Below are positions 35,049-64,000 of a DNA stretch of 64,000 nt, piece by piece (position 1 is the first letter of the stretch; each line of letters starts with the position of its first letter). Source of the DNA: Brevundimonas sp. PAMC22021. GTDB taxonomy: Bacteria; Pseudomonadota; Alphaproteobacteria; Caulobacterales; Caulobacteraceae. The translations under genes were made by a program, and so were the position numbers. Below the pieces are notes generated by a model that worked only from the letters and a program-made list of their open reading frames with translations, had not been told where the DNA came from and did not search any database. The stretch is from contig NZ_CP080376.1 of NCBI RefSeq assembly GCF_019443405.1, positions 1,302,001-1,366,000 of the forward strand, read 5' to 3'.

Positions 35049-35073
35049 TCGTCTGCTCACTCCTTCCGCCCTT

Positions 35074-35186: not shown

Positions 35187-35195
35187 CGGTTTGCG

Positions 35196-41418: not shown

Positions 41419-41436
41419 GGCGGTCTCCGTAGAAGC

Positions 41437-42252
41437 TCAGCCCTTCACGCTGCCCGCGAGCATGCCGCGGATGTAGTAGCGTTGCAGGGCCAGAAAGAGG
41501 ATCAGGACGGGCGCGACCGTGACCACCGCACCCGCCATCATCAGCTCCACATCCTGCACGTGCTCGCGTGACAGGGCGGCTAGAGCGACCGGCAGGGTGT
41601 AGTTCGACTGGTCCGTCAGCACGATCAACGGCCACAGGAAATCGTTCCAGCTGCCCAGGAACACGAACAGGCCCAGGGTCACCACGATAGGCTGAAGTGT
41701 CGGCAGCACCACGCGGCGGAAGATCTGTCCCTCCGAGGCGCCGTCCACGCGAGCGGCTTCCAGCATCTCGTCGGGAATGCTGAGCGCATACTGGCGCACC
41801 AGGAAAAGCCCAAAGATCGACGCCAGCCAGGGCACCAGCGCCCCCGCATGGGTGTTCACCAGCCCCATGCTCTTCAGCATCAGGAACAGCGGCAGGGTCC
41901 CGATCTGGGCCGGCACCACCAGCGCCGCCACCAGCACCTGAAACAGCCGTTCGCGTCCCCTGAACCGCAGCTTGGCGAAGGCGTAGCCAGCCGGAACCGT
42001 GAACAGCAGCGCCAGGACCGTCGCCAGCGTCGCTAGGAGCACGCTGTTCAGCACATAGCGCCCCATGCCCTGGTTGAGGAACAAGTCCTGGTAGTGCTCA
42101 AGCGTGAAGCGCGAGGGGACCAGCGGCGGCGGAAAGGTCGCGGCTTCGCCCGTCGGCATGAAGCTGACGGACAGCATCCAGAGCAGCGGGAACAGCACGA
42201 TCAGGGCGATGATCGCGACCGCGAGGTTGAGCAGGATCGTTCTGGCCTTCAT
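41437..42252 (-). CDS. Sugar ABC transporter permease (MalG/UgpE-like)
   Basis: The 271-residue inner-membrane protein has six hydrophobic segments and the EAA coupling loop (DEMLEAARVDGASEGQIFRRVVLPTLQP), which contacts the ATPase. ATG 42252 overlaps the preceding permease stop by 4 bases. With its partner it forms the membrane channel of a type I carbohydrate importer. Confidence 0.93.
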   Translation of the reverse strand: MKARTILLNLAVAIIALIVLFPLLWMLSVSFMPTGEAATFPPPLVPSRFTLEHYQDLFLNQGMGRYVLNSVLLATLATVLALLFTVPAGYAFAKLRFRGRERLFQVLVAALVVPAQIGTLPLFLMLKSMGLVNTHAGALVPWLASIFGLFLVRQYALSIPDEMLEAARVDGASEGQIFRRVVLPTLQPIVVTLGLFVFLGSWNDFLWPLIVLTDQSNYTLPVALAALSREHVQDVELMMAGAVVTVAPVLILFLALQRYYIRGMLAGSVKG

Positions 42253-45939: not shown

Positions 45940-45974
45940 GGCGCCTCACGCAGTACAGGGCAGAAAAGAAGCGA

Positions 45975-46001
45975 CCGCCTCCCGCTCGATGCGAGAGGCG
46001 G
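45975..46001 (-). terminator. Stem-loop after the locus A TonB receptor gene
   Basis: CCGCCTC (45975-45981) pairs with GAGGCGG (45995-46001), a few bases after the receptor stop on the minus strand, followed by a T-rich stretch (TTCTTTTCT). It may reduce read-through into the glucanase gene or stabilise the receptor message. Confidence 0.5.
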
Positions 46002-46015
46002 CCAAACCAGGGAGA

Positions 46016-49000
46016 TCAGAACGAGTAGCGGGCGCCCACCTGGAACGTCCGGGTCGGGAACAGCACTCCGCTTGGCCGACCGAAGTTGGCGTTGGGGCTG
46101 GCAGCCGATCCCGTTCCCCCGTCGTAGCCTGTGAAGTTGCTGAAGTTGAACACGTTGATCGCGTCCACGAACACCTCGACCTGCTGCCCGTCGAAGACCT
46201 GGAAGTTCTTGGTCAGCCTTAGGTCCAGATTCCGGTAGGCAAAGGCGTCCGGCAGGAAGAACTGCTCCCGCTCGGGACGGCCCGCGTTGGGTCGATAATA
46301 AAACTGTGAGCCCCGCCCGTCAAAGACGTCATACGGCGTGCCCGAGCCTAGCGTCAGGATACCGGACAAACGGAAATCCAATGGCAGGTCGATGATGCCG
46401 TTGGCCACGATGCGGTGACGCTCGTCGTTGCCCGACGGCCGCATCGGCGAGCTCTCCACCGAGAAGCAATCAAAGCAGAAGTTGTCGGCGCCGCCGTTCT
46501 GCTCAGCTTTCGACAGGGTGTAGGCAACGTTCAGGCCCCAACCTGAATCAGCCGTGTAGGGCTTGTCCAACTTGACATAGAGGGCGGTAAACTCACGCTC
46601 CTTGTTGTGGTCGGACACCAGGTAAGAGCGGTAAGGGTTGGCCGCGCCGGGAGAACAGAAGCCGCCGTTGTCGCCGAAGCCGCCGTCGTCGTTGCCATAG
46701 GACGGTTCGCGACAACGGTTCAGATATTGCCAGGTGAACTCGTTCTCCGTCTTGCCGTAGGCCAGGGTGAACTCGGTCTGCCACTCGCCAACGCGCTGGC
46801 GGACGCCCAGGTTGAACTGGTCGGTGCGCGGCGGCTCGAAGTCGTTCTTCAGCAGGAACGCCTCGCCCTTGGCGGGGAAGCCGGCCAACAGGGCGTCCAA
46901 TCCGTCCGTCGTCGCGTAAACGGGATTCCAGCGCACCGGGTCCGTCGGGGTGCCATCGGCCACGCCGGCCGGTCGGCCCGTCGTCGAGAAGAAGACGTTC
47001 TGAGAGAAGTCGAAAGGCTTGGCCAGCTCGTCAAATGCAAAATTGAACTGCACCCGATCATAATACCGACCGGCGCCGCCGAAGATCACGGTCGAGCGGT
47101 CGCCGAAGATGTCATACGAGAACCCGAAGCGCGGCTGGAAGGCGTCGGTAAAGGGCTCGCGGTCACCGCTGCCGATATAGTCGTTGATGTTGAACCAGCT
47201 TGGGGCATACCCGGCCGGTTTCCCTCCGTCGGTAGACGCGATCCATTGGTTCAGTCCGGTGACAACCGACTGAGGCGTGACGTAGTCCGCATTATTGAAA
47301 TTGTCTTCATAGTCCCACCGCAGCCCAAGGTTCAATTCGAGCTTGTCGGTGATCCGCCAGTCATCCTGGATATACAGGCCATAGACGTTGTTGGTCAGGT
47401 CTATGGTCGGAAACTCATTGCCCAGTTCGACACGGTACGGCACGTCATCGTCACCGCTGGCAACGCCGTTCAAGTCATAAAAGAACTGGGGATTGCGCCC
47501 GAATTCTTTCTCCACGTTGTATGTCTGCTTGGAAAATTTTGCCCCCACCTTGATCGTATGAAAGCCGCGGAACTCCACATCCGTGAAAGTCAGATCGTTG
47601 CGGAAGGTCAGGGCTTCGTCCGTGATGTCCTGTCGGCTGTTGGCGCCGCCGATGTTTACGATGGCCACCCCGCCAAACGGATCATAAGGACCCTCAAAAA
47701 TGCGGTAGCTGGCTCCAGGCAGATCGAAGTTGGCTGCGGTCGGGTTGTAGTTGTAGTCGCGGTAATCGACCGCGAACTCGTTTAGAAAACCCGCCCCCTG
47801 CCACTGATAGCGCAGGTTGCCGCTCTTAGTAGTCTGGCGCAGGCCGCTGGCGCGCTCAAAGGTATTTGCGCCGCCAACCCCCGTGGTGTCCGCCTCATCG
47901 CGATAGGTGACGCTGAGGTCGATCAGGTGACCGTCCGCAGGCTGAAAGCTCAGCTTTCCGAAGATCAGGTCTTCTTCGAACGGGGTGGCGAAAGTGCCGA
48001 TGTATTCGTCGAACCGGCTGACGTATTCTGGATTCTGCCGCCCCAAGTTCACCTGGGCGGCGCGCTGCTCCTCCTTGCGCTCGTAGTTCACGAAGAAGTG
48101 CAGGCGATCCTGGATGATTGGACCGCCCAGAGCGGCGCCATACTGGCGCACCTCCAAATCCGCCTTTTCATCTCCGCGCCGCTCGGCGAACTCGTCCTGA
48201 GCGATGAAGCTTTCGTCGCGATACTGGCCGAACACTTCGCCGTGGAACTCGTTGGTGCCCGAGCGGGTGACGGCGGTGATGATCGCTGAGGAGGCCTGCT
48301 CGTACTCGGCCTTGAAGTTCTGGCTTACGACGCGGAACTCCTGGATAGAGCCCTGCGGGAAGGGATTGCCGCGACTGTCGTCCTGGCCCGCGATGCCGCC
48401 GCCGATGACGTTGGACTTCAGGCTGGCGCCGTCAATGAAGGCGTTGACGGATTCGGCGCGCTGGCCACCGGCGGTGATGGTCTGCTCCGTCTCGCTCTGC
48501 GACAAGCGCACGCCGGGCGCCAGCGCGGCGAAGTTCAGGAAGTTGCGGTTGATCTGCGGCAGGGTCTGGATCTGCTGCGTGGTGACATTGGTGGCGTTCT
48601 CAGGCGTGCGGACTTCGGCCAGCCGGCGGCCGACGACCACCACGTCCTCCACCGTGCTCTCGCCCGCATCAGCCGTTATCGCAGCGCCGATCGCCAGATC
48701 GAGATCGCCTACCTGTCCCACGCCGATCGTGACCGTATCCGTGGCGACGCCGCCGTCCGGGGCCGTTGCGGTGATTTCATAGGTGCCGGGGCGCAAGCCT
48801 GACAGCACATAGCCGCCCGACGCATTGGCCGTCGTGCGGGTCGTGAAGCCGGTGGACGTCTCGCGCGCCACCACAGTTGCGCCGGCCTCTGGCGCGCCGC
48901 CATCCGCGATGGAACCTCGGATAGTCGACGTCGCGGTCTGCGCCATGGCCCCGCCGGCGCTGAGCAGGCCGACGGAGAGGGCCAGCGCCGATGCGGCGGC

Positions 49001-49033
49001 AAGGGCGTGGTTGCGGGTCTTGATGTTAGGCAT
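46016..49033 (-). CDS. Oar-like TonB-dependent outer-membrane receptor
   Basis: This TonB-driven importer of about 1005 residues probably takes up oligosaccharides. After a Sec signal (about 1-31, ending GGAMAQ) comes a carboxypeptidase-regulatory-like beta-sandwich (TIRGSIADGGAPEAGATVVA). Then follow a VEDVVVVGRR TonB-box-like stretch, a plug with LPQINRNFLNFAALAPGVRLSQ, and a barrel ending in FQVGARYSF. ATG 49033 was chosen because the signal begins there; the lacI stop overlaps it by 8 bases, implying coupling. The N-terminal domain and plug style match the Oar subfamily. Confidence 0.92.
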   Translation of the reverse strand: MPNIKTRNHALAAASALALSVGLLSAGGAMAQTATSTIRGSIADGGAPEAGATVVARETSTGFTTRTTANASGGYVLSGLRPGTYEITATAPDGGVATDTVTIGVGQVGDLDLAIGAAITADAGESTVEDVVVVGRRLAEVRTPENATNVTTQQIQTLPQINRNFLNFAALAPGVRLSQSETEQTITAGGQRAESVNAFIDGASLKSNVIGGGIAGQDDSRGNPFPQGSIQEFRVVSQNFKAEYEQASSAIITAVTRSGTNEFHGEVFGQYRDESFIAQDEFAERRGDEKADLEVRQYGAALGGPIIQDRLHFFVNYERKEEQRAAQVNLGRQNPEYVSRFDEYIGTFATPFEEDLIFGKLSFQPADGHLIDLSVTYRDEADTTGVGGANTFERASGLRQTTKSGNLRYQWQGAGFLNEFAVDYRDYNYNPTAANFDLPGASYRIFEGPYDPFGGVAIVNIGGANSRQDITDEALTFRNDLTFTDVEFRGFHTIKVGAKFSKQTYNVEKEFGRNPQFFYDLNGVASGDDDVPYRVELGNEFPTIDLTNNVYGLYIQDDWRITDKLELNLGLRWDYEDNFNNADYVTPQSVVTGLNQWIASTDGGKPAGYAPSWFNINDYIGSGDREPFTDAFQPRFGFSYDIFGDRSTVIFGGAGRYYDRVQFNFAFDELAKPFDFSQNVFFSTTGRPAGVADGTPTDPVRWNPVYATTDGLDALLAGFPAKGEAFLLKNDFEPPRTDQFNLGVRQRVGEWQTEFTLAYGKTENEFTWQYLNRCREPSYGNDDGGFGDNGGFCSPGAANPYRSYLVSDHNKEREFTALYVKLDKPYTADSGWGLNVAYTLSKAEQNGGADNFCFDCFSVESSPMRPSGNDERHRIVANGIIDLPLDFRLSGILTLGSGTPYDVFDGRGSQFYYRPNAGRPEREQFFLPDAFAYRNLDLRLTKNFQVFDGQQVEVFVDAINVFNFSNFTGYDGGTGSAASPNANFGRPSGVLFPTRTFQVGARYSF

Positions 49034-50105
49034 GGTGAGGCTCCCCCCTGAGATTTCGGTCACGCCCGCTGGGGCGGGACGAGACCGTTTTTGATTGATG
49101 TTGCAAGGCGACGCTGGACTGACGCACGACCAGTGTAGGCCGGACGATCTCGGGCCCGGATTCCGGCAAGGCGCCGGTCGCGGGCGCCTGGATCAGCGTG
49201 ATCAGCCGCTCGAGCGCGCGCGCGCCGGTTCCGGCGATATCGACCTTCAGCGTCGTCAACGCTGGCCGCACGACCTCGGCGATGGGCACGTCGTCGAAGC
49301 CGACCACGGCGATGTCGTCCGGGCAGTTCAGGCCCGCCTCCTGGATCGCCAGCACGGCGCCGACCGCCATCATGTCGTTGGCCGCGAACACCGCATCCGG
49401 CGGGGAAACCTCGGCCAGCATCCGGGCCACGGCGCGGTAACCGGAACCCTGGGTGAAGTCGCCCGGCTCGATCCGGCTCTCGAGTCCGGCCGCTTCCAAC
49501 GCCTGACCATAGCCGCGCATGCGGTCGTCGGCTTCGAGATTGCCGACGGGCCCGCGTACATGGGCGATGCGACGACGACCTGTTTCCAGTAGGTGGGCGA
49601 CCGCTTGCGATGCCCCGTCATGATTGTCGATCGTGATGCACGGGCGATCCGTTCCAACGGCCGCCGCGTTCATCAGCACCACGGGCAGGGATCCGACCAG
49701 CCCTTCGGCGAGCTTCGCCGCATCGAGGTGCGGCGACAGCACGATCAGACCGTCGACCCGCCCGCGCATCGACCGCATCGCCATCGCGGCTTCTTCGGCG
49801 TCGTCGTGCGAGCTGGACACAATCAGATGCTTGCCGTGCGCACGCGCGGCGAGATCCATGCCGCGGATAAGCTCGGAGAAATACTCGCCGAACAGGTCCG
49901 GCAGGATCACGCCCAGGGTGTCGGTCCGCCGCATCGACAGGCTGCGCGCGCCGCTGTGCGGGACATAGCGCAGCGTCTCGACCGCCTCGAGCACACGCCC
50001 GCGCATGGCCTCGGTGACGGCCTCAGCGCCGTTAAGGACACGCGAAACGGACGCCACGGACACGCCGGACCGTTTCGCGACATCGCGGATCGTGGCCGAC
50101 CTCAT
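49026..50105 (-). CDS. LacI-family transcriptional regulator (locus A)
   Basis: The 359-residue regulator has an N-terminal helix-turn-helix (TIRDVAKRSGVSVASVSRVLNG), the hinge, and a periplasmic-binding-type effector domain (GVILPDLFGEYFSELIRGMD; CPDDIAVVGFDD). ATG 50105 was preferred over a start 18 bases earlier because family similarity begins there. It heads the minus-strand locus and its stop overlaps the receptor start by 8 bases. A perfect palindrome about 105 bases upstream is its likely own operator. The effector is probably a sugar from the glucan. Confidence 0.94.
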   Translation of the reverse strand: MRSATIRDVAKRSGVSVASVSRVLNGAEAVTEAMRGRVLEAVETLRYVPHSGARSLSMRRTDTLGVILPDLFGEYFSELIRGMDLAARAHGKHLIVSSSHDDAEEAAMAMRSMRGRVDGLIVLSPHLDAAKLAEGLVGSLPVVLMNAAAVGTDRPCITIDNHDGASQAVAHLLETGRRRIAHVRGPVGNLEADDRMRGYGQALEAAGLESRIEPGDFTQGSGYRAVARMLAEVSPPDAVFAANDMMAVGAVLAIQEAGLNCPDDIAVVGFDDVPIAEVVRPALTTLKVDIAGTGARALERLITLIQAPATGALPESGPEIVRPTLVVRQSSVALQHQSKTVSSRPSGRDRNLRGEPHHA

Positions 50106-50209
50106 CGGCCCATCCACCCGCACGTGGCCCAGCCCTCTGGCGGCAAAGTCAGTCCTCCCTGCAAACGAACCGTGCCAGCCATCCTATCGAAGGTCTGTCG
50201 ATATCGCCC

Positions 50210-51759: not shown

Positions 51760-54291
51760 ATGAAGCGTAGCCACAGCCTTGCCGCGTCCGCCGTTGCGCT
51801 CAGCGCCTCACTGAGCGCCTGCGCCGCCTCGCCCTCCGGCGGCGAGGTCGTTTCCTACGTCGCGGCGCAGGATTCGATCGTCACCGACGCTGCCCGAGCC
51901 CATCCCGCGCGTTGGCCGGCGGCGGCCTCTCCCGCGGAAATGAGCGACGCCGCCACGGAGGCGTTCGTAACCGAGCTGATGGGCCGGATGACGCTGGAGG
52001 AGAAGGTCGGCCAGACCATCCAGGCCGATATCGGCTCGATCACCCCGGACGACCTGCTGCGCTATCCGCTGGGCTCCATCCTGGCCGGCGGCAACTCCTC
52101 GCCAGGCGGAAACGAGCGGGGGCCGGCCCAGGCGTGGGTCGATCAGGCCCGGGCCTTTCGCGCCGCCGTGGCCCAGCGTCCTGGCGCGCGTATCCCGCTG
52201 ATCTACGGCATCGACGCGGTGCATGGGCACAACAATGTGGTTGGCGCGACCCTGTTTCCCCACAACATCGGCCTCGGCGCCGCTCGCGACCCCGACCTGA
52301 TCCGCCGCATCGGCGAGGCGACCGCCCTGGAAGTCGCGGTGACGGGCGCCGACTGGACCTTTGGTCCGACCCTGGCCGTGCCGCGCGACGACCGCTGGGG
52401 CCGCGCCTACGAAGGCTACGCCGAAAACCCCGAGGTGGCGCGCAGCTACGCCGGCCCGATGACGCTGGGCCTGCAGGGTCCGATCACGACGGCGCAAGGG
52501 CTGCAGCCCGGCCGCATCGCCGGCTCCGCAAAGCATTTCCTGGCCGACGGCGGCACCGACCAGGGCCGCGACCAGGGCGACTTCACCGGCTCGGAGCAAG
52601 AGCTGATCGATACGCACCTGTCCGGCTATCGCGAGGCGATCGATGCGGGCGTGTTGTCGATCATGGCCAGCTTCTCGTCTTGGAACGGGGTCAAGCATTC
52701 CGGCAACGAGACCATCCTGACCGACGTGCTGCGGGGCCCGTTGGGCTTTGACGGCTTTGTGGTGTCGGACTGGAACGCCCACGGCCAGCTGCCCGGCTGT
52801 TCCAACGAGAGCTGCGCGCTCGCCTTCAACGCCGGCATCGACATGTTCATGGCGCCCGACAGCTGGCGGCCGCTGTACGAGAGCACCCTGGCCCAGGCGC
52901 GCTCGGGCCAGATCCCGATGGCTCGGCTGCATGAGGCGGTGCGCCGCATCCTGCGGGTCAAGGTCAAGTCGGGTCTGTTCAACGAGGCCCGCCCCGTCGA
53001 GGGCAAGCTGAGCGAGCTGGGCTCGCCTGCGCACCGCGCCCTGGCGCGCGAAGCGGTGCGCAAGTCGCTGGTGCTGCTAAAGAACGAGGGCTCGGTCCTG
53101 CCGATCCGCCCCGGCGCGCGCGTGCTGGTAGCGGGGTCGGCCGACGACATCGGTCAGGCCGCCGGCGGCTGGACGCTCACCTGGCAGGGCACGGGTAACA
53201 GCAACCGCGATTTCCCCAACGCCCAGTCGATCTGGGGCGGCATCCAGGAGGCGGTGCGCCAGGGCGGCGGCCAGGCGACGCTCAGCGTCGATGGCGCCTT
53301 CACCCAGAAGCCGGACGTGGCCATCGTGGTGTTCGGCGAGACCCCCTACGCCGAGTTCCAAGGGGACGTCGAAACCCTGGACTTCCTGCCGGAAGGTCCG
53401 CTGCAGACGCTGAAGCGACTGAAGGCGGCGGGCATTCCCACCGTCTCGGTCTTCCTGTCGGGCCGCCCCATGTGGACCAACCCCGAGATCAACGCCTCCG
53501 ACGCCTTTGTCGCCGCCTGGCTGCCCGGTTCTGAGGGCGGCGGCGTGGCCGACGTGCTGATCGGAAATCGCCAGGGCCAGGCGCGCCACGACTTCACCGG
53601 CAAGCTGTCGTTCAGCTGGCCCAGGGACGCGGCGGCTCGCCCGCTGAACGTCGGGCAGGCCGGCTATGATCCGCAGTTCGCCTACAGCTACGGCCTGTCC
53701 TACGCCCAACCTGCCGGCGTGGGCCTGCTGCTGGAGAACAGCGGCGTGACGGCGCCGGCCGCCAGCGCCGACCGCTATTTCGCGGACGGCCGCTTCGTGG
53801 CGCCCTGGTCCCTGATGCTGCGCGATGCAGGCGGCGAGTTCCGCCTGGGGTCCGAGCGCACGGGCGCGAGCCCGCGCAACGGGGTCTCGGTGCGGGTCGC
53901 CGACGGCGAGGCCCAGGAGTCCGCACGCGCCCTGACCTTCGGCCCGTCAGGCGGCCAGGCGGTGATCGTCGCGGGACCCGTCGACCTGACACGCCAGGCC
54001 AACGGTGAAATGGCGCTCGCCTTCCGCTATCGCGTGGATGCGGCAGCGCAGGGTCCGGTGTTCTTGACGCTGGGAGACGCGTCCGTGGACATCTCCTCCA
54101 TGCTGCGTGCGGGTCCTGTCGGCGAATGGCGCACGATGAAGGTGCGGCTGTCGTGCCTGCGCGACCGCGGCGCCAACATCGCCGCCGTGGATCAGCCGTG
54201 GGGCCTGCGTTCGACCGGCGCGTTCGGCGTCACGGTCGAGGATATCCGTCTCGCCTCCAACGAGGGCGACGCGGTCTGCCCGGCGGCCTAG
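51760..54291 (+). CDS. GH3 beta-glucosidase, lipoprotein
   Basis: The 843-residue exo-glucosidase has a lipoprotein signal with lipobox LSAC (C21). The N-terminal GH3 domain holds K258-H259 (SAKHFLADGG) and the nucleophile D337 in GFVVSDWNAHG. A second GH3 domain follows, then a C-terminal beta-sandwich-like domain of about 180 residues, as in ExoP-type enzymes. ATG 51760 follows GGGGAGGGA. It converges on the MFS gene. It could split glucobiose or oligoglucosides in the periplasm, including products of the glucanase; linkage specificity is unknown. Confidence 0.92.
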   Translation: MKRSHSLAASAVALSASLSACAASPSGGEVVSYVAAQDSIVTDAARAHPARWPAAASPAEMSDAATEAFVTELMGRMTLEEKVGQTIQADIGSITPDDLLRYPLGSILAGGNSSPGGNERGPAQAWVDQARAFRAAVAQRPGARIPLIYGIDAVHGHNNVVGATLFPHNIGLGAARDPDLIRRIGEATALEVAVTGADWTFGPTLAVPRDDRWGRAYEGYAENPEVARSYAGPMTLGLQGPITTAQGLQPGRIAGSAKHFLADGGTDQGRDQGDFTGSEQELIDTHLSGYREAIDAGVLSIMASFSSWNGVKHSGNETILTDVLRGPLGFDGFVVSDWNAHGQLPGCSNESCALAFNAGIDMFMAPDSWRPLYESTLAQARSGQIPMARLHEAVRRILRVKVKSGLFNEARPVEGKLSELGSPAHRALAREAVRKSLVLLKNEGSVLPIRPGARVLVAGSADDIGQAAGGWTLTWQGTGNSNRDFPNAQSIWGGIQEAVRQGGGQATLSVDGAFTQKPDVAIVVFGETPYAEFQGDVETLDFLPEGPLQTLKRLKAAGIPTVSVFLSGRPMWTNPEINASDAFVAAWLPGSEGGGVADVLIGNRQGQARHDFTGKLSFSWPRDAAARPLNVGQAGYDPQFAYSYGLSYAQPAGVGLLLENSGVTAPAASADRYFADGRFVAPWSLMLRDAGGEFRLGSERTGASPRNGVSVRVADGEAQESARALTFGPSGGQAVIVAGPVDLTRQANGEMALAFRYRVDAAAQGPVFLTLGDASVDISSMLRAGPVGEWRTMKVRLSCLRDRGANIAAVDQPWGLRSTGAFGVTVEDIRLASNEGDAVCPAA

Positions 54292-54313: not shown

Positions 54314-55525
54314 TCACGCCGTGCGCGGAGTGGGCCCGCCCAGCGTCATCAGCCCGCCGGCCGCCAGCGACAGCAGCGCCAGCAGCAGGAGAAGCGGCCC
54401 GAACCGCCCTTCCGCCGCCAGCAGATAGGTCAACGCAGGCCCCAGAAGCGCTGGCAGGGTGTTGGTCAGGTTCAACAGACCGAGATCACGCCCCCGGTGC
54501 GCCGATGACGGCAACAGACGCATGGCGTAGGCGGACTGGATCGCCAGAAATGCGCCCAGGCCCACCGCGAACAGGGCGTAGCCGGCGACCGCCGTCCCCC
54601 ATTGCGGCCACAGGCCCATGATGGCGAGGCCGCAGGCGCAGGCGCACGCCAGTGCCGCCAGGCTTGCGCGCGCGCCGCCTCGCCGGTCGATCAGCCGGCC
54701 GATCGCCATCGACACAGGCGCGCTGACCAAGGTGACGATCCCGGTAATCCACGCCACGCGCGCGGCCAGTTGCTCGCCCGACGCCGCGCCCTGAGGTCCG
54801 GCCACGCTTTCGAAATAGAACAGGATAAAGGCGAACAGCACATTGCCGGCGACCTGCACCAGAAGGCGCGACAATCCCACGACGCCTAGACGCCAAAAGC
54901 CATGCACGCTCGTGTTCGTTGTTGGAGCCGCCGCTTCATACTGGACCGACCTCCGCGTCGTCAGCAGGAACGGCGCCGCCAAGGCTGTCACAAGGCCGAG
55001 GGTGCAGAACAGCCGCGCCGCCCAGCTCCAGTCCGGCGCCCAGGTGATCATCACCGCCGCCACCGTGCCCAGCGGATAGGCCGCGCCATAGACGCCGCCC
55101 AGCACGCCCTTCTGATCGTCTCCCGTCTCGTCCGCCGCGATGGCGATCAGCGGGGCCAGGAAGGTGTTCAGCGCCGCCTGGAAGAGCACCACCGCGGCCA
55201 CGAGCTCAGCCGGGTTCGAGGCAAGATGCAGCGTAATGTAGGACAAGGCCGTGCCGAACAGTCCCGCCACGGCTACCGCCCTTCGACCGAAGGGCCGCCT
55301 GGCCCACAGGTCGCTGACCATGCCCGCCAGGATGTTGCCGACGCTGGCCGCCAGCGCGCCCGCGATCGAGGCGAGGCTCAGCAGGGCCACCTTGCCGTCC
55401 GCCTCAGCGAGGCTTTCGACCTTCAGCGGCAACAGCAGCGTCAAAAGCGGCACATAGGCGCAAACCGCGCCGCCATAGGCCAAGCCGTAAAGCAGCAGAT
55501 AACCGCGTCGGCGATGTAGGATCAC
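54314..55525 (-). CDS. MFS transporter (probable sugar or sugar-derivative transporter)
   Basis: The 403-residue membrane protein has 12 hydrophobic segments and an N-terminal MFS pattern (GMVSDLWARRPFGRRAVAVAG). Such proteins in TonB-receptor loci of Caulobacterales usually carry mono- or disaccharides into the cytoplasm. Its start overlaps the upstream LacI stop by 4 bases, so it is the last gene of locus B. Substrate is unknown. Confidence 0.87.
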   Translation of the reverse strand: MILHRRRGYLLLYGLAYGGAVCAYVPLLTLLLPLKVESLAEADGKVALLSLASIAGALAASVGNILAGMVSDLWARRPFGRRAVAVAGLFGTALSYITLHLASNPAELVAAVVLFQAALNTFLAPLIAIAADETGDDQKGVLGGVYGAAYPLGTVAAVMITWAPDWSWAARLFCTLGLVTALAAPFLLTTRRSVQYEAAAPTTNTSVHGFWRLGVVGLSRLLVQVAGNVLFAFILFYFESVAGPQGAASGEQLAARVAWITGIVTLVSAPVSMAIGRLIDRRGGARASLAALACACACGLAIMGLWPQWGTAVAGYALFAVGLGAFLAIQSAYAMRLLPSSAHRGRDLGLLNLTNTLPALLGPALTYLLAAEGRFGPLLLLLALLSLAAGGLMTLGGPTPRTA

Positions 55526-56568
55526 GAAGGCGGACGCCCGGTTGACGCCCGTGTCGTCAGGGCGAAAGGCGTCAGGGTGATCGGTTGCAGGTCCTCTTCC
55601 CCGGCCTTGGCGCGGATCAGCAAACGAGCCGCCTCCGCCGTCATGGCGGCGATGGGCTGGGTGATGGCCGTCAGCGGCGGATGGCTGAAGCGCACGATGG
55701 GCGTGTCGTCGAAGCTGACGATCGACAGTTGCTCCGGCACGGCGACGCCTCGACCGTTCGCGACCTGCAACGCCGCCAGCGCCATCTGGTCGTTGCTGGC
55801 GACCACGGCCGTGGGCGGTGCAGCCAGGTCCAGCAAGGCCTCCATCGCCCGCACGCCGGAGGCAAAGGAGAAGTCCCCTCTCTGGATCAAGGCTGCGTCC
55901 GATGCGACATCCGCATGTTTAAGCGCCTGACAATAGCCGTCCAGGCGCGCGCCGCTGAGCGCATATTCGTCGCTGCCGGTGATAAAGGCGATGCGCCTGT
56001 GACCCAGCCCGAGCAGATGCTCGGTCGCCGCTCGCCCCGCCGCGGCGTCGTCCATAGCGATGGCGAAGCCGGCCCCATCGGTCATCGAGCCGATGCGCGC
56101 GAACGGCAGTCCCTGCCGCTTCAGCAGGTCGGTGATGAGCGGGTTGTCGGAGTGCGGCGGCGTCAGGATCACCCCATCCGGGTGCAGCGCAGCCAAGGCC
56201 CCCAGCACTTCGCGCTCGACCTGTGCGGAGTGGGTATCGACCAGTTCAAAGATCATGCGGTAGCCGTGCTCGGCGGATTCCAGCATGCCGCCCAGCAGCA
56301 TCTGGTCGACCCAGTCGGTCCCCTCACCCGAGCGCCAGCCCTCTATCGTGCGGTCACGATCGTTCAGCGCCAGCAGCAGAAACGAGCGTGATCCCCCCAT
56401 CCGCCTGGCAGCCAGGCTTGGCGTGTAGCCCAGCTTGGCCATCGCCTGATTGACGCGGGTCCGAACCTCGTCGCGCACGTTCGGGCCATTGTTCATGACG
56501 CGCGAGACGGTCTGAAGCGAAACGCCCGCTTCCTCGGCGACGTGACGGATCGTGACCTTTCGCTTCAT
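55522..56568 (-). CDS. LacI-family transcriptional regulator (locus B)
   Basis: The 348-residue regulator has HTH VTIRHVAEEAGVSLQTVSRV, hinge VRDEVRTRVNQAMAKLGY and an effector domain. It lies between the halogenase and MFS genes in the same operon, so it likely regulates its own operon in response to a sugar. It is a separate protein from the LacI of locus A, with different recognition helix residues (LQTVSRV against VASVSRV), so the two need not share operators. Confidence 0.93.
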   Translation of the reverse strand: MKRKVTIRHVAEEAGVSLQTVSRVMNNGPNVRDEVRTRVNQAMAKLGYTPSLAARRMGGSRSFLLLALNDRDRTIEGWRSGEGTDWVDQMLLGGMLESAEHGYRMIFELVDTHSAQVEREVLGALAALHPDGVILTPPHSDNPLITDLLKRQGLPFARIGSMTDGAGFAIAMDDAAAGRAATEHLLGLGHRRIAFITGSDEYALSGARLDGYCQALKHADVASDAALIQRGDFSFASGVRAMEALLDLAAPPTAVVASNDQMALAALQVANGRGVAVPEQLSIVSFDDTPIVRFSHPPLTAITQPIAAMTAEAARLLIRAKAGEEDLQPITLTPFALTTRASTGRPPS

Positions 56569-56569: not shown

Positions 56570-58099
56570 TCACGCTCTTGGCGGCGGCGACGGCGCGGCG
56601 CAATGGGCGGCGATGAAGGCTTTGTGCGTTGGAAGCCCTTCCACCGTCCGCGTCAGCGTCTCGCGCGCCCGATCCATCTGCGCCGGCGCGCCATCAAAGG
56701 GAATCCGCTCGACCAAAGGATGGTAGCTGCGAGGGCGCACCCCCATGCCCTCCATCACGGATTGCCAGCTGACCGCCCGAAACAGCTCGTCGACGCCCTC
56801 GGACAGCGAGCCGTTGACGCAGAACAGGTCGATCTTGCGACGCAGCGTCTCCGGCGGCTCCATTTCCGCACAGGCGCGCCAGAACAGCGTGTCGTCCCGC
56901 TGGGTGGTGCAATAGTGCAGGATGATGAAGTCGCGGATCTCCTCGTAGTCCGTTCTCATCCGCCGATTGAACTCGTCCGCCAGCGCAGGCGCGCAATCGC
57001 GATCCGGCAGGTAGCGAAAGAAGAACTCCATGCCGCGATACACCAGGTGGATCGCCGTCGATTCCAGGGGCTCTATGAAGCCGCTGGCGAGGCCCAGCGA
57101 GAGCACGTTCCTGTGCCAGATGCGTTCGCGCATGCCCGTCTTGAACGGCACCACCATCGGCTGGACCACCGGCTCGCCCTCGACCTGCGACATCAAGGTG
57201 GCGGTCGCCTCATCATCCGACAGGTGCGCGCTGGAGAAAACATATCCGTTGCCGGTCCGGTGCTGCAGCGGGATGCGCCAGCGCCATCCCGCGTCCTGGG
57301 CGTGCGCCAGGGTATAGGGCGGCGGCGGCCCGACGTTCTCCGTCTGCACGGCGATGGCGCGGTCACACAGCAGCCAGTGCGACCAGTCCTCATAGCCCAC
57401 ATCCAGCGCCTTGCCGATCAGCAGCGCCCGAAAGCCGGAGCAGTCGATGAAGAAGTCCGCCTCGACCGACCGTCCGTCCTTCAACACCACCCGCTCGACG
57501 AAGCCGTCAGGCCGCTGGATCACCTCCTCAATCCGCCCCTCCGTGCGGACCACGCCACGCGCCTCCGCGAAGCGGCGCAGGAACAGGGCCACCTGGCGCG
57601 CATCGACGTGCAACGCATAGGCGGCGCCGCCCACCGCCGTCTTCCGCGCCTTGAACGGCAAGGTGAATCGGCCTTGTTCCATCATCACCGATGCGGGTGC
57701 GAACTCCTGGAGCTCGTGCGGGTAACCGTTCTGCCTTGCCTTCAGCCACACCTGATAGAAGTCACTGATGTCGACCGGCATGCCGATCACCCCGAACGGG
57801 TGGTAGTAGCTCTCGCCCTTGCGTCGCCAGTCGCGGAACTGGATGCCCAGCTTGAAGCTGGCCTGGGTTTCGCGGACGAACTCCTCCTCGTTGACGCCCA
57901 GCTTGGCCAGCAGCTGCAGAAAGGGGGGCACGGTGGATTCGCCGACGCCGATGGTCCCGATCTCGTCGGATTCGACCAGTTCGATCTCGCATAACCGACC
58001 TTTAAAGTGCTCGGCCATCAGGGCGGCCGCGATCCAGCCGGCGGTGCCGCCGCCAACAATGCAGATTTTGCGAAGCGGCCGGTGCTCGGTGTTGTCCAT
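56570..58099 (-). CDS. Flavin-dependent halogenase-family protein (first of two)
   Basis: The 509-residue protein has an FAD motif VGGGTAGWIAA (15-25), the FKLGIQF lysine (K83, aligned with the catalytic lysine of tryptophan halogenases), the WxWxIP motif in GWRWRIPLQHR, and IEPLEST with the catalytic glutamate region. Residues needed for halogenation therefore appear kept. The gene ends one base before the lacI start and is 12 bases after the second halogenase gene. Members in sugar-linked TonB loci have unknown substrate; no flavin reductase is visible. Confidence 0.9.
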   Translation of the reverse strand: MDNTEHRPLRKICIVGGGTAGWIAAALMAEHFKGRLCEIELVESDEIGTIGVGESTVPPFLQLLAKLGVNEEEFVRETQASFKLGIQFRDWRRKGESYYHPFGVIGMPVDISDFYQVWLKARQNGYPHELQEFAPASVMMEQGRFTLPFKARKTAVGGAAYALHVDARQVALFLRRFAEARGVVRTEGRIEEVIQRPDGFVERVVLKDGRSVEADFFIDCSGFRALLIGKALDVGYEDWSHWLLCDRAIAVQTENVGPPPPYTLAHAQDAGWRWRIPLQHRTGNGYVFSSAHLSDDEATATLMSQVEGEPVVQPMVVPFKTGMRERIWHRNVLSLGLASGFIEPLESTAIHLVYRGMEFFFRYLPDRDCAPALADEFNRRMRTDYEEIRDFIILHYCTTQRDDTLFWRACAEMEPPETLRRKIDLFCVNGSLSEGVDELFRAVSWQSVMEGMGVRPRSYHPLVERIPFDGAPAQMDRARETLTRTVEGLPTHKAFIAAHCAAPSPPPRA

Positions 58100-58111
58100 A
58101 AGCCCTTTGTC

Positions 58112-59629
58112 CTATGCCGTAAGCGAACGGTTGAGCGCCCGGAGAAACTCCGCATGCGTTGGACTGTCGGCCACCGCCTCGGCCACGGCGCGGCGCATGC
58201 CGTTCAACGCCTGGCCCAGGCTCGTCGGATCAACGCCGTCCAATGCAGGGTCGCGTCGGTCGGGATAGAGGCCGAAGCCGTCGTAGATCGCCAGCCAGCT
58301 CGCAGGATGGAACATTTCCCAGCGATAGCGCACGAACTGCCCTCGCGCCTTCCACAGGTCGAGCTTGCGCTGAAGCGTATCGGGAATCTCGCGCTCGCGG
58401 CAGTCGCGCCAGAACGGCTCGTCGCGGCCGTTCAGCTTGTAGTGCAGGATGATGAAGTCGCGCACCCGCTCCATCTCGCGCGCGGTCTGATCGTTGAACT
58501 CGTCAATGCTGGCCGGATCGAAATCGCGATCGGGAAACAGCTGCAGCAGCCGCTCGATGCCCGTTTCGATCAGGGCGATGGAGGTGCTCTCCAAAGGCTC
58601 GAGAAAGCCGGCCGCCAATCCAAGGGCAACGCAGTTCTTCCGCCAGGCCTGCTGCCGACGCCCCGGTCGAAACCCGATTCGGCGCGGCTCGGTCAACGGC
58701 CGCCCGAGCAGGCGAGGCCGCAGTTCGGCCAGCGCCTCATCGTCGGTCATATGGGCGCTGGAAAAGACCAGCCCGTTGCCGGCGCGGTGTCGCAAGGGAA
58801 TGCCCCATTGCCACCCCGCGGACCTGGCGGTGACCTGGGTCACGGGCCGGGGCGCCTCGTCAGCGTTCTCGCTCTGCACGGCGAAGGCGGCGTCGCACGG
58901 CAGCCATTCGCCCCAGTCCTGGTAAGGCACGCCCAGCGCCTGCCCGATCAGCAGACCACGAAACCCTGAGCAGTCGACAAACAGATCGCCTTCGATCTCG
59001 CCGCCGCCGTCAAGCTTGAGCGCCCGGATGAAGCCGTCCTCCGGCCGGAGATCCACCGACACAATCCGCGCATCCAGCCGCCTCACCCCTCGCTGTTCCG
59101 AATAGGTCCGAAGGAGCCCGGCGAACAGGCTGGCGTCCAGATGCAGCGCCCAGTCGAACACCGACAGCTCAGACGGCGGATTGCGGGACGGCAGGGTCAC
59201 CCGACCACCGCGCGCCAGGGCGGCTCCCAGTGAAAACTCAGCCAGCGCGGGCGCATGCCCCCCTTCGCGCAGCCGCATCCAGTAGTGGTGGAAATCGATG
59301 CCTTTCAGGTCCTGACCGTACCGCCCGAAAGGATGGATGAAGTCGGACCCTTCGCCGGACCAGCCCTTGAACTGGATGCCCAGCTTGCAGGTGGCCTCGG
59401 TCGCCTTCATCACCTCGGCGTCGCCAAGACCCAGTCCCGCATAGAAGCGGCGGATGGTCGGGATGGTCGCCTCCCCTACCCCGATCGTGCCGATCTCGGA
59501 AGATTCCACCACCGTGATCCGCAACGGCGCATTGGCGAAGCGGTTGGCCAGCGCCGCCGCCGCCATCCATCCCGCCGTGCCACCCCCCGCCACCACGACA
59601 TGGCGGATGCGCCTGTGGTCGTCGCTCAT
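58112..59629 (-). CDS. Flavin-dependent halogenase-family protein (second of two)
   Basis: The 505-residue paralogue of its neighbour has the same set: AGGGTAGW (14-21), CKLGIQFKGW with K82, GWQWGIPLRHR, and FLEPLEST. Sequence differs clearly from the first copy, so they are distinct enzymes rather than a recent duplication. ATG 59629 was chosen because the FAD motif begins soon after; a start 48 bases earlier has no similarity. It lies after the TonB receptor gene, separated by a hairpin. Confidence 0.9.
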   Translation of the reverse strand: MSDDHRRIRHVVVAGGGTAGWMAAAALANRFANAPLRITVVESSEIGTIGVGEATIPTIRRFYAGLGLGDAEVMKATEATCKLGIQFKGWSGEGSDFIHPFGRYGQDLKGIDFHHYWMRLREGGHAPALAEFSLGAALARGGRVTLPSRNPPSELSVFDWALHLDASLFAGLLRTYSEQRGVRRLDARIVSVDLRPEDGFIRALKLDGGGEIEGDLFVDCSGFRGLLIGQALGVPYQDWGEWLPCDAAFAVQSENADEAPRPVTQVTARSAGWQWGIPLRHRAGNGLVFSSAHMTDDEALAELRPRLLGRPLTEPRRIGFRPGRRQQAWRKNCVALGLAAGFLEPLESTSIALIETGIERLLQLFPDRDFDPASIDEFNDQTAREMERVRDFIILHYKLNGRDEPFWRDCREREIPDTLQRKLDLWKARGQFVRYRWEMFHPASWLAIYDGFGLYPDRRDPALDGVDPTSLGQALNGMRRAVAEAVADSPTHAEFLRALNRSLTA

Positions 59630-59665
59630 GATTGCCTCCCCGAACCTATCGATCGAACAAAGATC

Positions 59666-59695
59666 GGCCGGCGACAACCGAAGTCGTCGCCGGCC
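59666..59695 (-). terminator. Stem-loop after the locus B TonB receptor gene
   Basis: GGCCGGCGAC (59666-59675) pairs perfectly with GTCGCCGGCC (59686-59695) around a 10-base loop, 19 bases after the receptor stop. A T-rich run follows on the minus strand. It could lower halogenase expression relative to the receptor. Confidence 0.6.
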
Positions 59696-59713
59696 AAGTT
59701 GCTCAGGGAAGCA

Positions 59714-62700
59714 TCAGAAGCGAGCGCGCAGCCCGATCGAGTACCGCGGCTCGAACTCGTTGCGCGAATGGAACTGCTCGGCCCCGTCCTCGAACTCGAA
59801 ATAGTACTCTTCGATTTCGCCCAGGACATTGGAGCCATTGGCGTAGATTGTGATGTTCTCCGTCAGATCGTAGGTGACGTTCACGTCCACATACTGCGCC
59901 GTGTCCTGGTAGATCGGGATCTGACCAAAGGTCGTGGCGAGGCGCGGCGTGCGGAAGTTGTACGCCACACGCGTCTGAAGCCGGTCGCCCTGATACCAGA
60001 GGGCGGCGTTGACCTGGTGCTCCGAGTTGTCCGGAAATGGCAGGTCTTCTCCAGATAGGTCCGTGGCGTTGGATGAACTGTCGGAGAAGGTGTAGCTGCC
60101 GTCGAAGCCGAAGTCGCGGAAGGCGCTATCTTCCGGCAACACATCACTCAGCGCGATCTTGGCGCCGACCTCCACGCCCTGAAGCGAGCCGCCTTCTCCC
60201 TGAACGGGTCGGTTCACCGGCACGATCCGGCGGATCACGCCGTCCTGATCGGGGAATTCGCCGTCGTTGACGGTGGCCCGCGTGACGAAGCTGTCGATCT
60301 CGAGCTTGAACAAGGCGACGTTGAACAACGTCGCACTGCCCAGATAATACTCGAGACTCAGGTCGTAGTTGTCCGAGCGCCAGGGATTCAGCGACGGGCT
60401 GCCGGCGAAGGTCGCGCCCGTCACCCGGCGAACACCAACCGGCGGCGCCGTCGGATCCGTCGGCGTCGGCCCAAGCGAATCCGACGTCGAAATAGTGACC
60501 CCGCCACCGTAGTTGCCGAGATCCAGCGGGATCATGGTCTTGTTGTAGGCCGCCCGCAGCTTCAGCTGGTCGCTGAAGTCGTACATGAGGTTGATCGACG
60601 GCAGGTAATCCGAGTAGCGGCGGCTGGAATAGGTGTCGCCGACATCGAGATTGGTGTCGCCGTAGTTGCGGGTCTCGCCCGTCAGGTTCTGACGTACGTC
60701 GAGCTTGGTGCGGATCATCTTGATCCCCACGTCCCCGCTCAATCGTCCGAAGCTGATGCCGCCGTTCACATAGGCGCTGTCCTCGGTCAGGCCGACATCA
60801 TAGCTGTTGCCTGGGATGATGACCGGATAGGCGCTGCCGAACACCCGCGTCTGAAAATCCACCACATCATCGAAGTCGCGCGGATCAACGACCCACACGC
60901 CCGGTAGGCCCTGGGTGATCGAGCCATAGTCGCTCATGAAGTAGGTGTTGTTGTGGGTGTAGAGCTTGGTCGGCCGGTTGACCGTATAGCCTTGGAACAC
61001 CGTCGGCTGGTTGGTCGCGCTGACTGGCAGGCCAGGGTTGAAGGCCGGATTGGGCACCTGCTCGCCCGCCTGGCACTGGTTCTGGTTCATGACAACGTCG
61101 ATGGCCTTCCACTGGGCCGAACAGCCGTTCGGGCTGGTGGCGCCGTTTCCGGCGTAGAAGTCCGAGAACAGATGGAAGTTCTCGATCTGCACGTCGCGTT
61201 TGGCGTGGCGCAGCCCGACGTCGATGCGGGTCACAAAGCCCAGCATGCCGTCGCCTTCGAACTCGTACGAACCGTCCGTTCGCGCGACCTCCAGCTGCGA
61301 TTCGTTGCGCTGGTTGCCTTCGGACGAAAATGCCGCGACGGCATAGCTGTCCTGATTGGCCATGTAGTCTTGCAGCGTGCGTCCGGCGCCCAGGCCGCCC
61401 GCGATCGGCTGATCGAACCGGCTCCACACCGTCTTGTCGCCGCCGATGTTCAGGTGAACCAGAGGGTCCTGCGAAATACCCAGCGGATTGGGATTGACGT
61501 AGCGCCCGCCGTTCGAGCCCACGATGCCGTTCGAGTACTGCGAAGCCGGATAGAGCGCCGCGATGTTGGCCGGATAGAATGTGCCCCGTGTTCGATCGAG
61601 CGGATCACGGAACAGGGTGAAGGTCCGGTCCGCCGAATAGGTCCAGTCGCTGAGATCGCCTTGAACCTGGCCATTCATGCTCAGCAGCGAGGCGTCGGCC
61701 TTGATCGCACGCGCCGACCATTTGAACGGACCGCCACGATCGTATTTCAGTTCCAGGTTATAGTTGGTGGTCTCGTTCTCGGTTGTCCGGTTCACCGTAA
61801 ATGAGTTCAGCCACCAGACATCGAGATCGTATTCGGTGACGTCCAACCAAGGTTCACCGTTGGAGCCGTTGACACCGGTTTGGTCGAAAGCCGTCGGTGT
61901 CGTCCACCCGAGGCCGCTCCAGCGATTGGAGATGTTCAACCCGGCGGCGCGATTATGCTCCTCCAGCTTGGCGTAGAAGACTTCGCCCGTCAGTTCGAAA
62001 CCGTCGTTGATCTGCCAGGTGAAAGCGCCGTTCGCGCCGAGACGATCGCGTTCGACTACGCGCTTGAAGCTGTCGTAGCCGTGCGGCGCGATCCAGTTGT
62101 CGTCCGCCCCGCCCCAGTCGTTGTTGCCGAACGGTCCACCCGAAATGCCTGAATAGTTGTTGCCGAGATTGGCTTCGCTCTTCACTGCCGACAGCAGGAA
62201 GCCGAAGCGGTCGTTGCGCCAGTTCACCAGGGCGTTGAACAGATAATCGTTCTCGCGCGTGTCCTCGCCGGTCGCGTACTCCACGGCTTCGGCGGTGGTC
62301 AGGCCGTAGCCGAAGTCGAAGGGGCGACGGGTGCGCAGGTCGATGGTGCCCGAGATGCCCGACAAGGCGTTTCGCACGTCCATCGACTTGAACACCACGA
62401 TGGAGTTCATCAGTTGTGCGGGCACGTCGTTCAGGTTCGGCTGCGCGCTGCCCAGGTTGCCGGGGCTGAGATACTGCTCACCGTTCAGCAGGGTCACGAC
62501 CTGCGGCAGGCCCCGGATGTTGACCGTGGAGCCTTCGCCGGCGTTGCGCTGGATCTGGATGCCCGCAATTCGTTGCAGCGCGTCCGCAACCGTAACGTCC
62601 GGCAGCTTGCCGATATCCTCGGCCGAGATGGCGTCGACGATCGCCGCCTCGTTGCGCTTGATGTTGATGGCCTGCTGCTGCGAGGCGCGGATGCCGGTGA

Positions 62701-62827
62701 CGACGATCTCGTCCACCTCGGCGGGCTGGTCCTGATCGGTCGGCGCCGTCTGGGTCTGAGCCATCGCCGGCGACACCAGCGCGGTTGTCGCCAACAAGCC
62801 GGCGATGATGGATGCGTGCTTTCTCAT
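59714..62827 (-). CDS. TonB-dependent receptor of the Xanthomonas/Caulobacter type
   Basis: This is a 1037-residue outer-membrane importer. Sec signal 1-23 (ending SPAMAQ), TonB-box region VDEIVVTG, plug with DIGKLPDVTVADALQRIAG and VNIRGLPQVVTLLNGEQ, and a 22-strand barrel ending GLRARF. The plug signature matches the TonB-Xanth-Caul subfamily, members of which often serve plant or algal oligosaccharide uptake. ATG 62827 is preceded by AGGAGGAACAAGG. It is downstream of a GH3 gene and upstream of the halogenase pair. Confidence 0.94.
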   Translation of the reverse strand: MRKHASIIAGLLATTALVSPAMAQTQTAPTDQDQPAEVDEIVVTGIRASQQQAINIKRNEAAIVDAISAEDIGKLPDVTVADALQRIAGIQIQRNAGEGSTVNIRGLPQVVTLLNGEQYLSPGNLGSAQPNLNDVPAQLMNSIVVFKSMDVRNALSGISGTIDLRTRRPFDFGYGLTTAEAVEYATGEDTRENDYLFNALVNWRNDRFGFLLSAVKSEANLGNNYSGISGGPFGNNDWGGADDNWIAPHGYDSFKRVVERDRLGANGAFTWQINDGFELTGEVFYAKLEEHNRAAGLNISNRWSGLGWTTPTAFDQTGVNGSNGEPWLDVTEYDLDVWWLNSFTVNRTTENETTNYNLELKYDRGGPFKWSARAIKADASLLSMNGQVQGDLSDWTYSADRTFTLFRDPLDRTRGTFYPANIAALYPASQYSNGIVGSNGGRYVNPNPLGISQDPLVHLNIGGDKTVWSRFDQPIAGGLGAGRTLQDYMANQDSYAVAAFSSEGNQRNESQLEVARTDGSYEFEGDGMLGFVTRIDVGLRHAKRDVQIENFHLFSDFYAGNGATSPNGCSAQWKAIDVVMNQNQCQAGEQVPNPAFNPGLPVSATNQPTVFQGYTVNRPTKLYTHNNTYFMSDYGSITQGLPGVWVVDPRDFDDVVDFQTRVFGSAYPVIIPGNSYDVGLTEDSAYVNGGISFGRLSGDVGIKMIRTKLDVRQNLTGETRNYGDTNLDVGDTYSSRRYSDYLPSINLMYDFSDQLKLRAAYNKTMIPLDLGNYGGGVTISTSDSLGPTPTDPTAPPVGVRRVTGATFAGSPSLNPWRSDNYDLSLEYYLGSATLFNVALFKLEIDSFVTRATVNDGEFPDQDGVIRRIVPVNRPVQGEGGSLQGVEVGAKIALSDVLPEDSAFRDFGFDGSYTFSDSSSNATDLSGEDLPFPDNSEHQVNAALWYQGDRLQTRVAYNFRTPRLATTFGQIPIYQDTAQYVDVNVTYDLTENITIYANGSNVLGEIEEYYFEFEDGAEQFHSRNEFEPRYSIGLRARF

Positions 62828-62880
62828 GGTCCTTGTTCCTCCTCCTGTTGGCGCCGCCTCTGCGTGCGGCTTTCTGATCT

Positions 62881-64000
62881 TCAGGGTTTCAGCGTGCCCG
62901 GATTGATGATCGCTGTTCCTGAAAGGGTGTTGTCGAGGGCGTCGCGGCCGACGCTGACGCGGTAGCGCCCGCCGTCGATCCGCCAGCCCGGCAGATCGGT
63001 GTCGTATTTGGCCAGGATGCGCGGTTCGGCCGTCAGGGTGATCCGGCGAGTTTCGCCCGGTTGCAGCATCACGCGCGCGAACGCCGCCAGACGACGCGGC
63101 CGGTCGCCATTCTCCGGCGCGACATAGAGCTGGGGCGAGGTCGCCCCTGCGCGATCGCCGGTGTTGGTGACGTCCACCTCCACGATCAGGCCGTCGCCGC
63201 CCGTCGCCGACAGGCCGCCATAGGTAAAGGTGGTGTACGAAAGGCCGTGCCCGAACGGTAACAGCGGACGGCGTTCTTCCCGTTCGTACCAGCGGTAGCC
63301 GGCATCCGAACCTTCCGGATAGTCCACGGCGAACGGCTGAAAACCGGCGGCCGAGCCCGCGCCGGGATTGGACGCCGCCGCCGCGTCGGCCGCTTTCATC
63401 GCCGCCAGCCCCGGCGGTGTCGGGCGCGGCGCCTGGTCGGCGCTGCGTGGAAAGGTGATGGGCAGGCGGCCCGACGGATTGACCTCGCCAAACAGGATGC
63501 GCGCGATCGCCTCCCCGCCCCTCTGGCCCGGATACCAGGCCTGCACCACCGCCGGAACCTGGTCGATCCACGGCATCAGCACCGGTCCGCCCGTCTCCAG
63601 AACCACGGCCGTGCGCGGGTTCGCGCCGGCCACCGCCGCGATCAGGGCGTCCTGATCGTCAGGCAGGGACAAGGTCTCCACGTCCTGCGCCTCCGTAGTC
63701 CACTGGGTGGCGAAAACGAACACGGCGTCTGCGCCGGCGACGGCCCTGGCGGCCGCAACAGGATCGGCGCCATCGACAAAGGTCACCTCGGCCACCGGCG
63801 CCATCCGGCGAATGGCCTCCAGCGGCGAGGAGGCGTGATAGGTCAGGCGCGCAAAGGACATGGCCGCGCCGGAGGTCAGCGGCACCTCGACCGGAGCACC
63901 GCCCACCGAACGCACCTGGGATGAGCCGCCGCCGGACAGCACGCCCACGTCGGCATGGCCGCCGACCAGGACGATGCGCCGCGCGGTCTTCGCCGCGGGC
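62881..64000 (-). CDS. GH3 beta-glucosidase, N-terminus cut by the window edge
   Basis: The visible 373 residues are the C-terminal part of a GH3 enzyme. They include the second domain (ALIAAVAGANPRTAVVLETGG; WYPGQRGGEAIARILFGEVN) and the C-terminal fibronectin-III-like domain (LIVEVDVTNTGDRAGAT, RVMLQPGETRRITLTAE). The insert YERAPNG-like loop is not seen. The catalytic nucleophile domain lies beyond the edge at 64000. The frame is open to the edge, so no start is visible. It is the first visible gene of locus B and ends 53 bases before the receptor start. Confidence 0.93.
   Translation of the reverse strand, partial: PAAKTARRIVLVGGHADVGVLSGGGSSQVRSVGGAPVEVPLTSGAAMSFARLTYHASSPLEAIRRMAPVAEVTFVDGADPVAAARAVAGADAVFVFATQWTTEAQDVETLSLPDDQDALIAAVAGANPRTAVVLETGGPVLMPWIDQVPAVVQAWYPGQRGGEAIARILFGEVNPSGRLPITFPRSADQAPRPTPPGLAAMKAADAAAASNPGAGSAAGFQPFAVDYPEGSDAGYRWYEREERRPLLPFGHGLSYTTFTYGGLSATGGDGLIVEVDVTNTGDRAGATSPQLYVAPENGDRPRRLAAFARVMLQPGETRRITLTAEPRILAKYDTDLPGWRIDGGRYRVSVGRDALDNTLSGTAIINPGTLKP

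Follow-up and report, generated by a model that had tools for sequence, protein, structure and literature searches.

Results

Organization and regulation of the operon

The 64,000-nucleotide stretch of the Brevundimonas sp. PAMC22021 genome analyzed here (contig NZ_CP080376.1, positions 1,302,001 to 1,366,000), termed the window, contains one minus-strand operon in which two flavin-dependent halogenase genes, encoding HalB and HalA, stand behind a TonB-dependent receptor. The operon opens with a GH3 beta-glucosidase-type hydrolase extending from its ATG at 65154, past the window end, to its stop at 62881, with the C-terminal part (62881..64000) lying within the window; the whole protein matches PF00933, PF01915 and PF14310, and its amino terminus is signal-peptide-like by eye. 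The 1037-residue receptor (59714-62827; PF00593, PF07715) carries a signal peptide, again by eye, and belongs to the TonB-Xanth-Caul subfamily, as its TIGR01782 score of 475 bits exceeds the cut-off of 310. It is followed by HalB (58112-59629, 505 residues), HalA (56570-58099, 509 residues), a LacI-family regulator (55522-56568; PF00356, PF13377) and, as the last gene, an MFS transporter (54314-55525; PF07690). Spacing is tight throughout, with gaps of 53 bp (GH3/receptor), 84 bp (receptor/HalB), 12 bp (HalB/HalA) and 1 bp (HalA/LacI) and a 4-bp overlap between the LacI and MFS reading frames. A previous sequence-only reading of this DNA had proposed the same order and close packing, which we confirm; the LacI and MFS genes it named are present as well, both lying below position 56570, where it had begun the locus.

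Comparison of related operons revealed a LacI-type operator, TTGTGAACGCTCTCAA, at 65384-65399 (window numbering), about 230 bp before the GH3 start, with no second site in the genome differing from the consensus TTGAGAACGTTCTCAA at two positions or fewer; a strict 16-bp palindrome scan upstream of GH3 found nothing. Among 13 GH3-first operons other than the window locus (L245), 12 have a site within three mismatches of TTGAGAACGTTCTCAA before the first gene, the exception being L171, and in 13 of 30 receptor-first operons, from Caulobacter where named, AATGACAACGTTGACATT occurs as an exact match before the receptor. At the corresponding position, Brevundimonas and Sphingomonas loci carry a LacI homologue, and an MFS homologue follows it in L166, L169-L173, L179, L188 and L199. 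From the local LacI gene and the conserved near-palindromic site before the first gene we infer an uptake operon controlled by its own LacI-family regulator; given this operator, a single local LacI protein probably governs induction of the halogenases along with that of the uptake genes.

No flavin reductase gene was found inside the operon, the sole PF01613 match of the genome being about 195 kb distant, and no aromatic-biosynthesis or resistance gene appeared among the Pfam matches of the larger genes inspected between 32 and 65 kb of the window, both in agreement with the sequence-only reading.

HalB and HalA represent two halogenase lineages

Both proteins match PF04820 over the full length (624 bits for HalA and 602 bits for HalB, cut-off 21), share the fold of solved halogenases and are the only matches to this family (E up to 0.001) in the 2.9-Mb, one-contig genome. 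Upon alignment to PrnA, residues K83, E346, S347, H100 and F102 of HalA as well as K82, E347, S348, H99 and F101 of HalB correspond to PrnA K79, E346, S347, H101 and F103, respectively. The GxGxxG, WxWxIP and EPLES motifs are kept in both, so that the catalytic lysines and the FAD, WxWxIP and EPLES motifs previously listed were all recovered. By eye, neither sequence shows a signal peptide, nor the Trp4 tryptophan-recognition motif as given in PMC8269204, where it is assigned to group A and B halogenases. The lysine and the glutamate are kept across the rows of both the HalA and the HalB clade, and HalA and HalB both appear to be active halogenase-family enzymes.

HalB is 73.9% identical over 499 columns to BrvH, the halogenase of Brevundimonas sp. 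BAL3 (PDB ID: 6frl; 846 bits), whereas HalA is 43.0% identical to HalB and 44% to BrvH. In a first tree HalB grouped with BrvH in a 25-row clade (SH-aLRT 100) and HalA fell outside it, in a clade of its own with 24 rows; in a larger tree of 236 rows the HalB core clade comprised 55 rows (support 99) and the HalA clade 58 rows (support 100). As HalA falls in its own clade, we consider it a paralogue and not the BrvH orthologue. The sequence-only reading had rightly pointed to two apparently active halogenases in the operon, an arrangement that recurs elsewhere, but had missed the kinship of HalB to BrvH.

The HalB-HalA pair recurs in fixed order

Searching 149 genomes of the source genome's family with HalB (E up to 1e-30) yielded HalB relatives in 70. 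The set of loci compared was not random, combining 40 loci from the genomes of this search, the best 80 of 589 named HalA-related loci and 20 hand-chosen ones; of these 140 loci, 132 were nonredundant, and a halogenase was called in 130 of the 132. One locus with a fused gene (L051) is absent from the second gene set, on which the larger tree and the residue and spacing analyses are built.

HalB followed by HalA was observed in 47 nonredundant loci, HalB always belonging to the core clade, and additionally in L172, where the gene caller had missed it; two further loci carry the pair plus a third gene, and other loci carry other halogenase combinations. In 45 pairs the receptor is the immediate upstream gene on the same strand, and with one exception HalB and HalA are spaced by -14 to 43 bp, -4 being the commonest value. 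The full order GH3-receptor-HalB-HalA-LacI-MFS recurs in L166, L169, L170, L171, L173, L179, L188 and L199, all from Sphingomonas except L166, with L199 being a near-copy of L173. Where GH3 and LacI are present as well (30 loci), the pairwise distances of HalA and HalB correlate with 0.943, those of the receptor with 0.919 (HalB) and 0.915 (HalA), and those of GH3 with 0.770 to 0.820. Several proteobacterial groups thus keep HalB and HalA as two adjacent lineages, in a constant order and downstream of related receptors; the pair is found in Caulobacter, Sphingomonas and Brevundimonas loci. Of the two genera earlier named for this pairing, Caulobacter is borne out; the Xanthomonas loci in our set instead contain a receptor, SapC, Cupin_8 and one halogenase.

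Three further arrangements were noted. In L051:7696-10761 (minus strand) HalB and HalA are joined in one 1021-residue frame, whereas the relatives L052-L054 have two genes; seen in one genome, this may be a genuine fusion or stem from a sequencing error. One Brevundimonas nasdae record carries a GH3-receptor-LacI operon with HalA and without HalB (L174:9998-11530). Finally, in Cellvibrio and other gammaproteobacterial records (L195, L196, L197, L200, L206) a single HalA-clade gene stands directly behind a LysR-type regulator, the family having been checked on L197, with no receptor called alongside.

Halogenases are linked to receptor lineages

Ten genomes of one or two contigs were scanned for PF04820 and TIGR01782. 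After dropping one of 64 PF04820 matches as below the cut-off and merging fragments by coordinate, 58 genes remained; receptors were counted as listed rows above the TIGR01782 cut-off, so weak receptors are missing. Of the 58 halogenase genes, fifty have a listed receptor no more than 6 kb away; when the halogenase positions were circularly shifted 1000 times, 3.6 genes on average and at most 15 came this close. Halogenase-linked receptors are nevertheless a minority among the receptors listed (30 of 112), and PF04820 matches are missing altogether from two of the ten genomes.

For the receptor phylogeny, removal of three uncertain receptors and filtering of 126 rows to under 90% identity left 109 receptors, 46 of them halogenase-near and 63 controls. 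On this tree 7 changes suffice to explain the halogenase-near label, of which well-supported branches force at least 5; shuffled labels need 35. The window receptor sits in an 18-row group that is halogenase-near throughout (support 98) and in a larger group of 38 rows with 35 halogenase-near members (support 87); other near receptors fall in other groups. The glycosidases near receptor-halogenase loci vary between GH3, GH10, GH43, GH13, GH31 and GH67. Because of this variation the halogenases seem to follow receptor lineage more than one sugar, which weakens the role on aryl-glycoside aglycones suggested by the sequence-only reading and leaves it unsupported.

Degenerate halogenases and accessory genes

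Catalytically degenerate halogenases form a clade whose members always come second in a tandem array, preceded by an intact halogenase (L059, L060, L062, L067, L069, L073, L208, L213, L219, L231 and L258; the short, interrupted second halogenase of L263 was excluded from the count). That a degenerate paralogue is kept, always in second place, in arrays related to the window pair provides a natural hint of heteromers in the halogenase family.

A receptor-SapC-Cupin_8-halogenase run was observed in Xanthomonas (L222, L223, L226, L228, L230), Pseudoxanthomonas (L217), Sphingomonas (L216) and Steroidobacter (L224), and recurs in L246, L247 and L248 as well as in three of the ten genomes. The Cupin_8 family includes side-chain hydroxylases. 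In the ten genomes, 5 of 8 strong Cupin_8 matches (7 weaker rows excluded) and 3 of 15 SapC matches lie within 3 kb of a halogenase, and DUF6445 occurs in one genome. Strong Sulfotransfer_3 matches (5 weaker rows excluded) lie within 4 kb of a receptor in 4 of 13 cases and within 3 kb of a halogenase in none of the 13, though a Sulfotransfer_3 gene does adjoin a halogenase in L063. Sulfotransfer_3 is possibly another receptor-linked modifying enzyme; three of its genes, G131:C1:1470480, G096:C1:706794 and G094:C1:1739780, have a receptor at a distance of about 2.5 kb and no halogenase in the vicinity.

Neighboring genes in the window

A second GH3 gene with an Exop_C domain (51760-54291, plus strand; PF00933, PF01915, PF18559) converges on the operon as a separate transcript and perhaps serves related metabolism. 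Downstream of a second LacI gene (49026-50123), a minus-strand carbohydrate-type locus (38221-49063) comprises an outer-membrane beta-barrel with a carboxypeptidase-regulatory domain, a putative glucoamylase, two transport permeases and an F5/8 type C protein. Enoyl-CoA hydratase, acyl-CoA dehydrogenase and aldehyde dehydrogenase genes follow in series on the minus strand at 32839-36698.

Discussion

Read from the sequences are the operon and its operator, the intact catalytic and FAD motifs, the co-inherited HalB-HalA pair and the coupling to TonB-dependent receptors that belong mostly to a few related lineages. We favor, with a probability of about 0.5, the reading that this is a LacI-controlled operon for the uptake of gluco-oligosaccharides or beta-glucosides containing a cooperating cytoplasmic pair of BrvH-type halogenases, the target of which is tied to the receptor lineage. 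In the presence of the inducing sugar, the LacI protein would release the operator; GH3 and the receptor would be exported, and HalB and HalA would remain in the cytoplasm, where they might form a heteromer via the dimer contact usual for the family. FADH2 from a housekeeping reductase, O2 and a halide, with bromide preferred as for BrvH, would then yield a hypohalite-derived species at the conserved lysine, and an electron-rich aromatic group would be halogenated in a solvent-open pocket. This target might be the receptor, or else some factor or ligand feature that its lineage shares, rather than one sugar. Of these elements, the halogenation chemistry is established, both in the family and in BrvH; what we infer is the heteromer and the target.

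Several observations weigh against this reading. HalA occurs without HalB in 7 nonredundant loci (e.g. L174, L185), and in 4, not counting L172, the only halogenase gene is one from the loose clade on the HalB side (74 rows, support 41). Operon inheritance alone would give much of both the fixed order and the mirrored trees, and LacI distances in the same 30 loci correlate nearly as well (0.852 with HalB, 0.921 with HalA, 0.918 with the receptor). In the ten genomes, 8 of the 58 halogenases are far from any listed receptor, and receptors 67-71% identical to a linked one, plus one pair at 87%, differ in their halogenase label. With limits of more than 60% of the near receptors and more than 30 points above the controls, no tryptophan-only column marks the halogenase-near receptors among the 109. 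Glycosidases beside a locus need not belong to it or share its regulon. As for the heteromer, rows of the degenerate clade are long-branched and oddly composed, so that false tree joins are possible; the clade may represent one event, and it is distinct from the HalA clade. Moreover, Xcc4156 is possibly monomeric in solution according to its authors (PMC7336383).

A tentative alternative, which we consider rather unlikely, is that the receptor imports a phenolic or indolic glycoside from which GH3 frees the aglycone, to be halogenated by HalA and HalB for detoxification, or as a signal or antimicrobial. GH3 is indeed part of the operon and lies within 5 kb at 41 of the 130 halogenase loci of our non-random sample, BrvH brominates indole (PMC5945002), and most indole-active enzymes also brominated phenol (PMC8269204). 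However, the receptor-halogenase link is also found near GH13, GH31, GH10, GH43 and GH67, pointing to polysaccharides without an obvious common aglycone. Furthermore, since GH3 and the receptor have signal peptides by eye and the halogenases none, an aglycone released by GH3 would need passage through the inner membrane, for which the MFS protein could serve as carrier.

Doubtful, in our view, is that the pair acts before export on a side chain of the receptor polypeptide, be it tryptophan or another, much like MibH, which halogenates peptide tryptophan (PMC8269204). The coupling to receptor lineages, the solvent-open pocket of BrvH (PMC5945002) and the co-occurrence of Cupin_8 are in line with such a maturation, but the lack of a specific tryptophan column and the related receptors without a nearby halogenase speak against it. 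Tryptophan and cysteine contents are higher in near receptors (p of 3e-5 and 2e-5, relatedness ignored), yet five independent pairs, too few to reach significance, gave no support for this enrichment. Some aromatic columns do differ, as for residue 551 of the window receptor (32 of 46 near versus 2 of 63 control receptors), which may reflect shared ancestry or sugar stacking. Judged by the length to the plug motif (found in 34 of 46 near and 32 of 63 control receptors), near receptors show no sign of a special N-terminal extension. Quite doubtful is also the wider proposal that HalB and HalA, and elsewhere a pair of active and degenerate enzymes, are heteromers that oxidize or halogenate the receptor or an associated peptide before export, together with Cupin_8 and SapC in other loci. 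That the proteins are instead flavin oxidases or pseudo-enzymes sensing or balancing redox during uptake, as the degenerate relatives in related arrays and the lack of a linked reductase might suggest, is improbable, since the window proteins keep the catalytic and FAD motifs, the rows of both clades keep the lysine and the glutamate, and BrvH, 74% identical to HalB, halogenates in vitro (PMC5945002).

The operon itself is of a known type; new here are the conserved two-lineage unit, the coupling of halogenases to receptors, the varied glycosidases and the degenerate second genes. Among openly licensed literature we found, by title, no paper on a halogenase-TonB receptor link, which is weak evidence of absence; the main texts of PMC5945002, PMC8269204 and PMC7336383 do not mention TonB, nor does the available text of the LacI regulon paper PMC4052901 mention a halogenase. 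Transcripts resembling rebH and prnA have been described in Colwellia and phages, for which the authors guess a role in competition or redox at virus-host receptors (PMC11337851).

Compared with characterized halogenases, HalA and HalB are 37-39% identical to PrnA, RebH and PyrH over about 405 aligned PrnA columns, and no biosynthetic cluster was seen around them. MibH (PDB ID: 5uao), a lanthipeptide tryptophan halogenase of the same family, acts on a tryptophan-bearing lanthipeptide and not on free tryptophan (PMC8269204). Unlike the window enzymes, Xcc4156 of Xanthomonas campestris (PDB ID: 6y1w) lies outside both the HalA and the HalB clade, and in our Xanthomonas loci SapC and Cupin_8 accompany a single halogenase in place of the HalB-HalA pair. 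The closest likeness is to BrvH, which has the same catalytic residues as HalB, favors bromide and elutes as a dimer, its substrate site being open to solvent (PMC5945002). It brominates indole at C3 in vitro and does not accept tryptophan; owing to the low activity, its authors doubt that indole is the natural substrate (PMC5945002). The halogenase pair itself is already in print, as the same report describes gene 13, another halogenase gene 42.7% identical to brvH and adjoining it, paralleling HalA (43.0%) beside HalB. The main text of that report mentions neither a receptor nor a glucosidase, and we found no work on the partner gene there. A second halogenase and a TonB-dependent receptor usually stand beside BrvH-type enzymes, so that the assays of BrvH by itself may have lacked its partner, and the recurring pair narrows the question of what the natural substrate of BrvH-type enzymes is.
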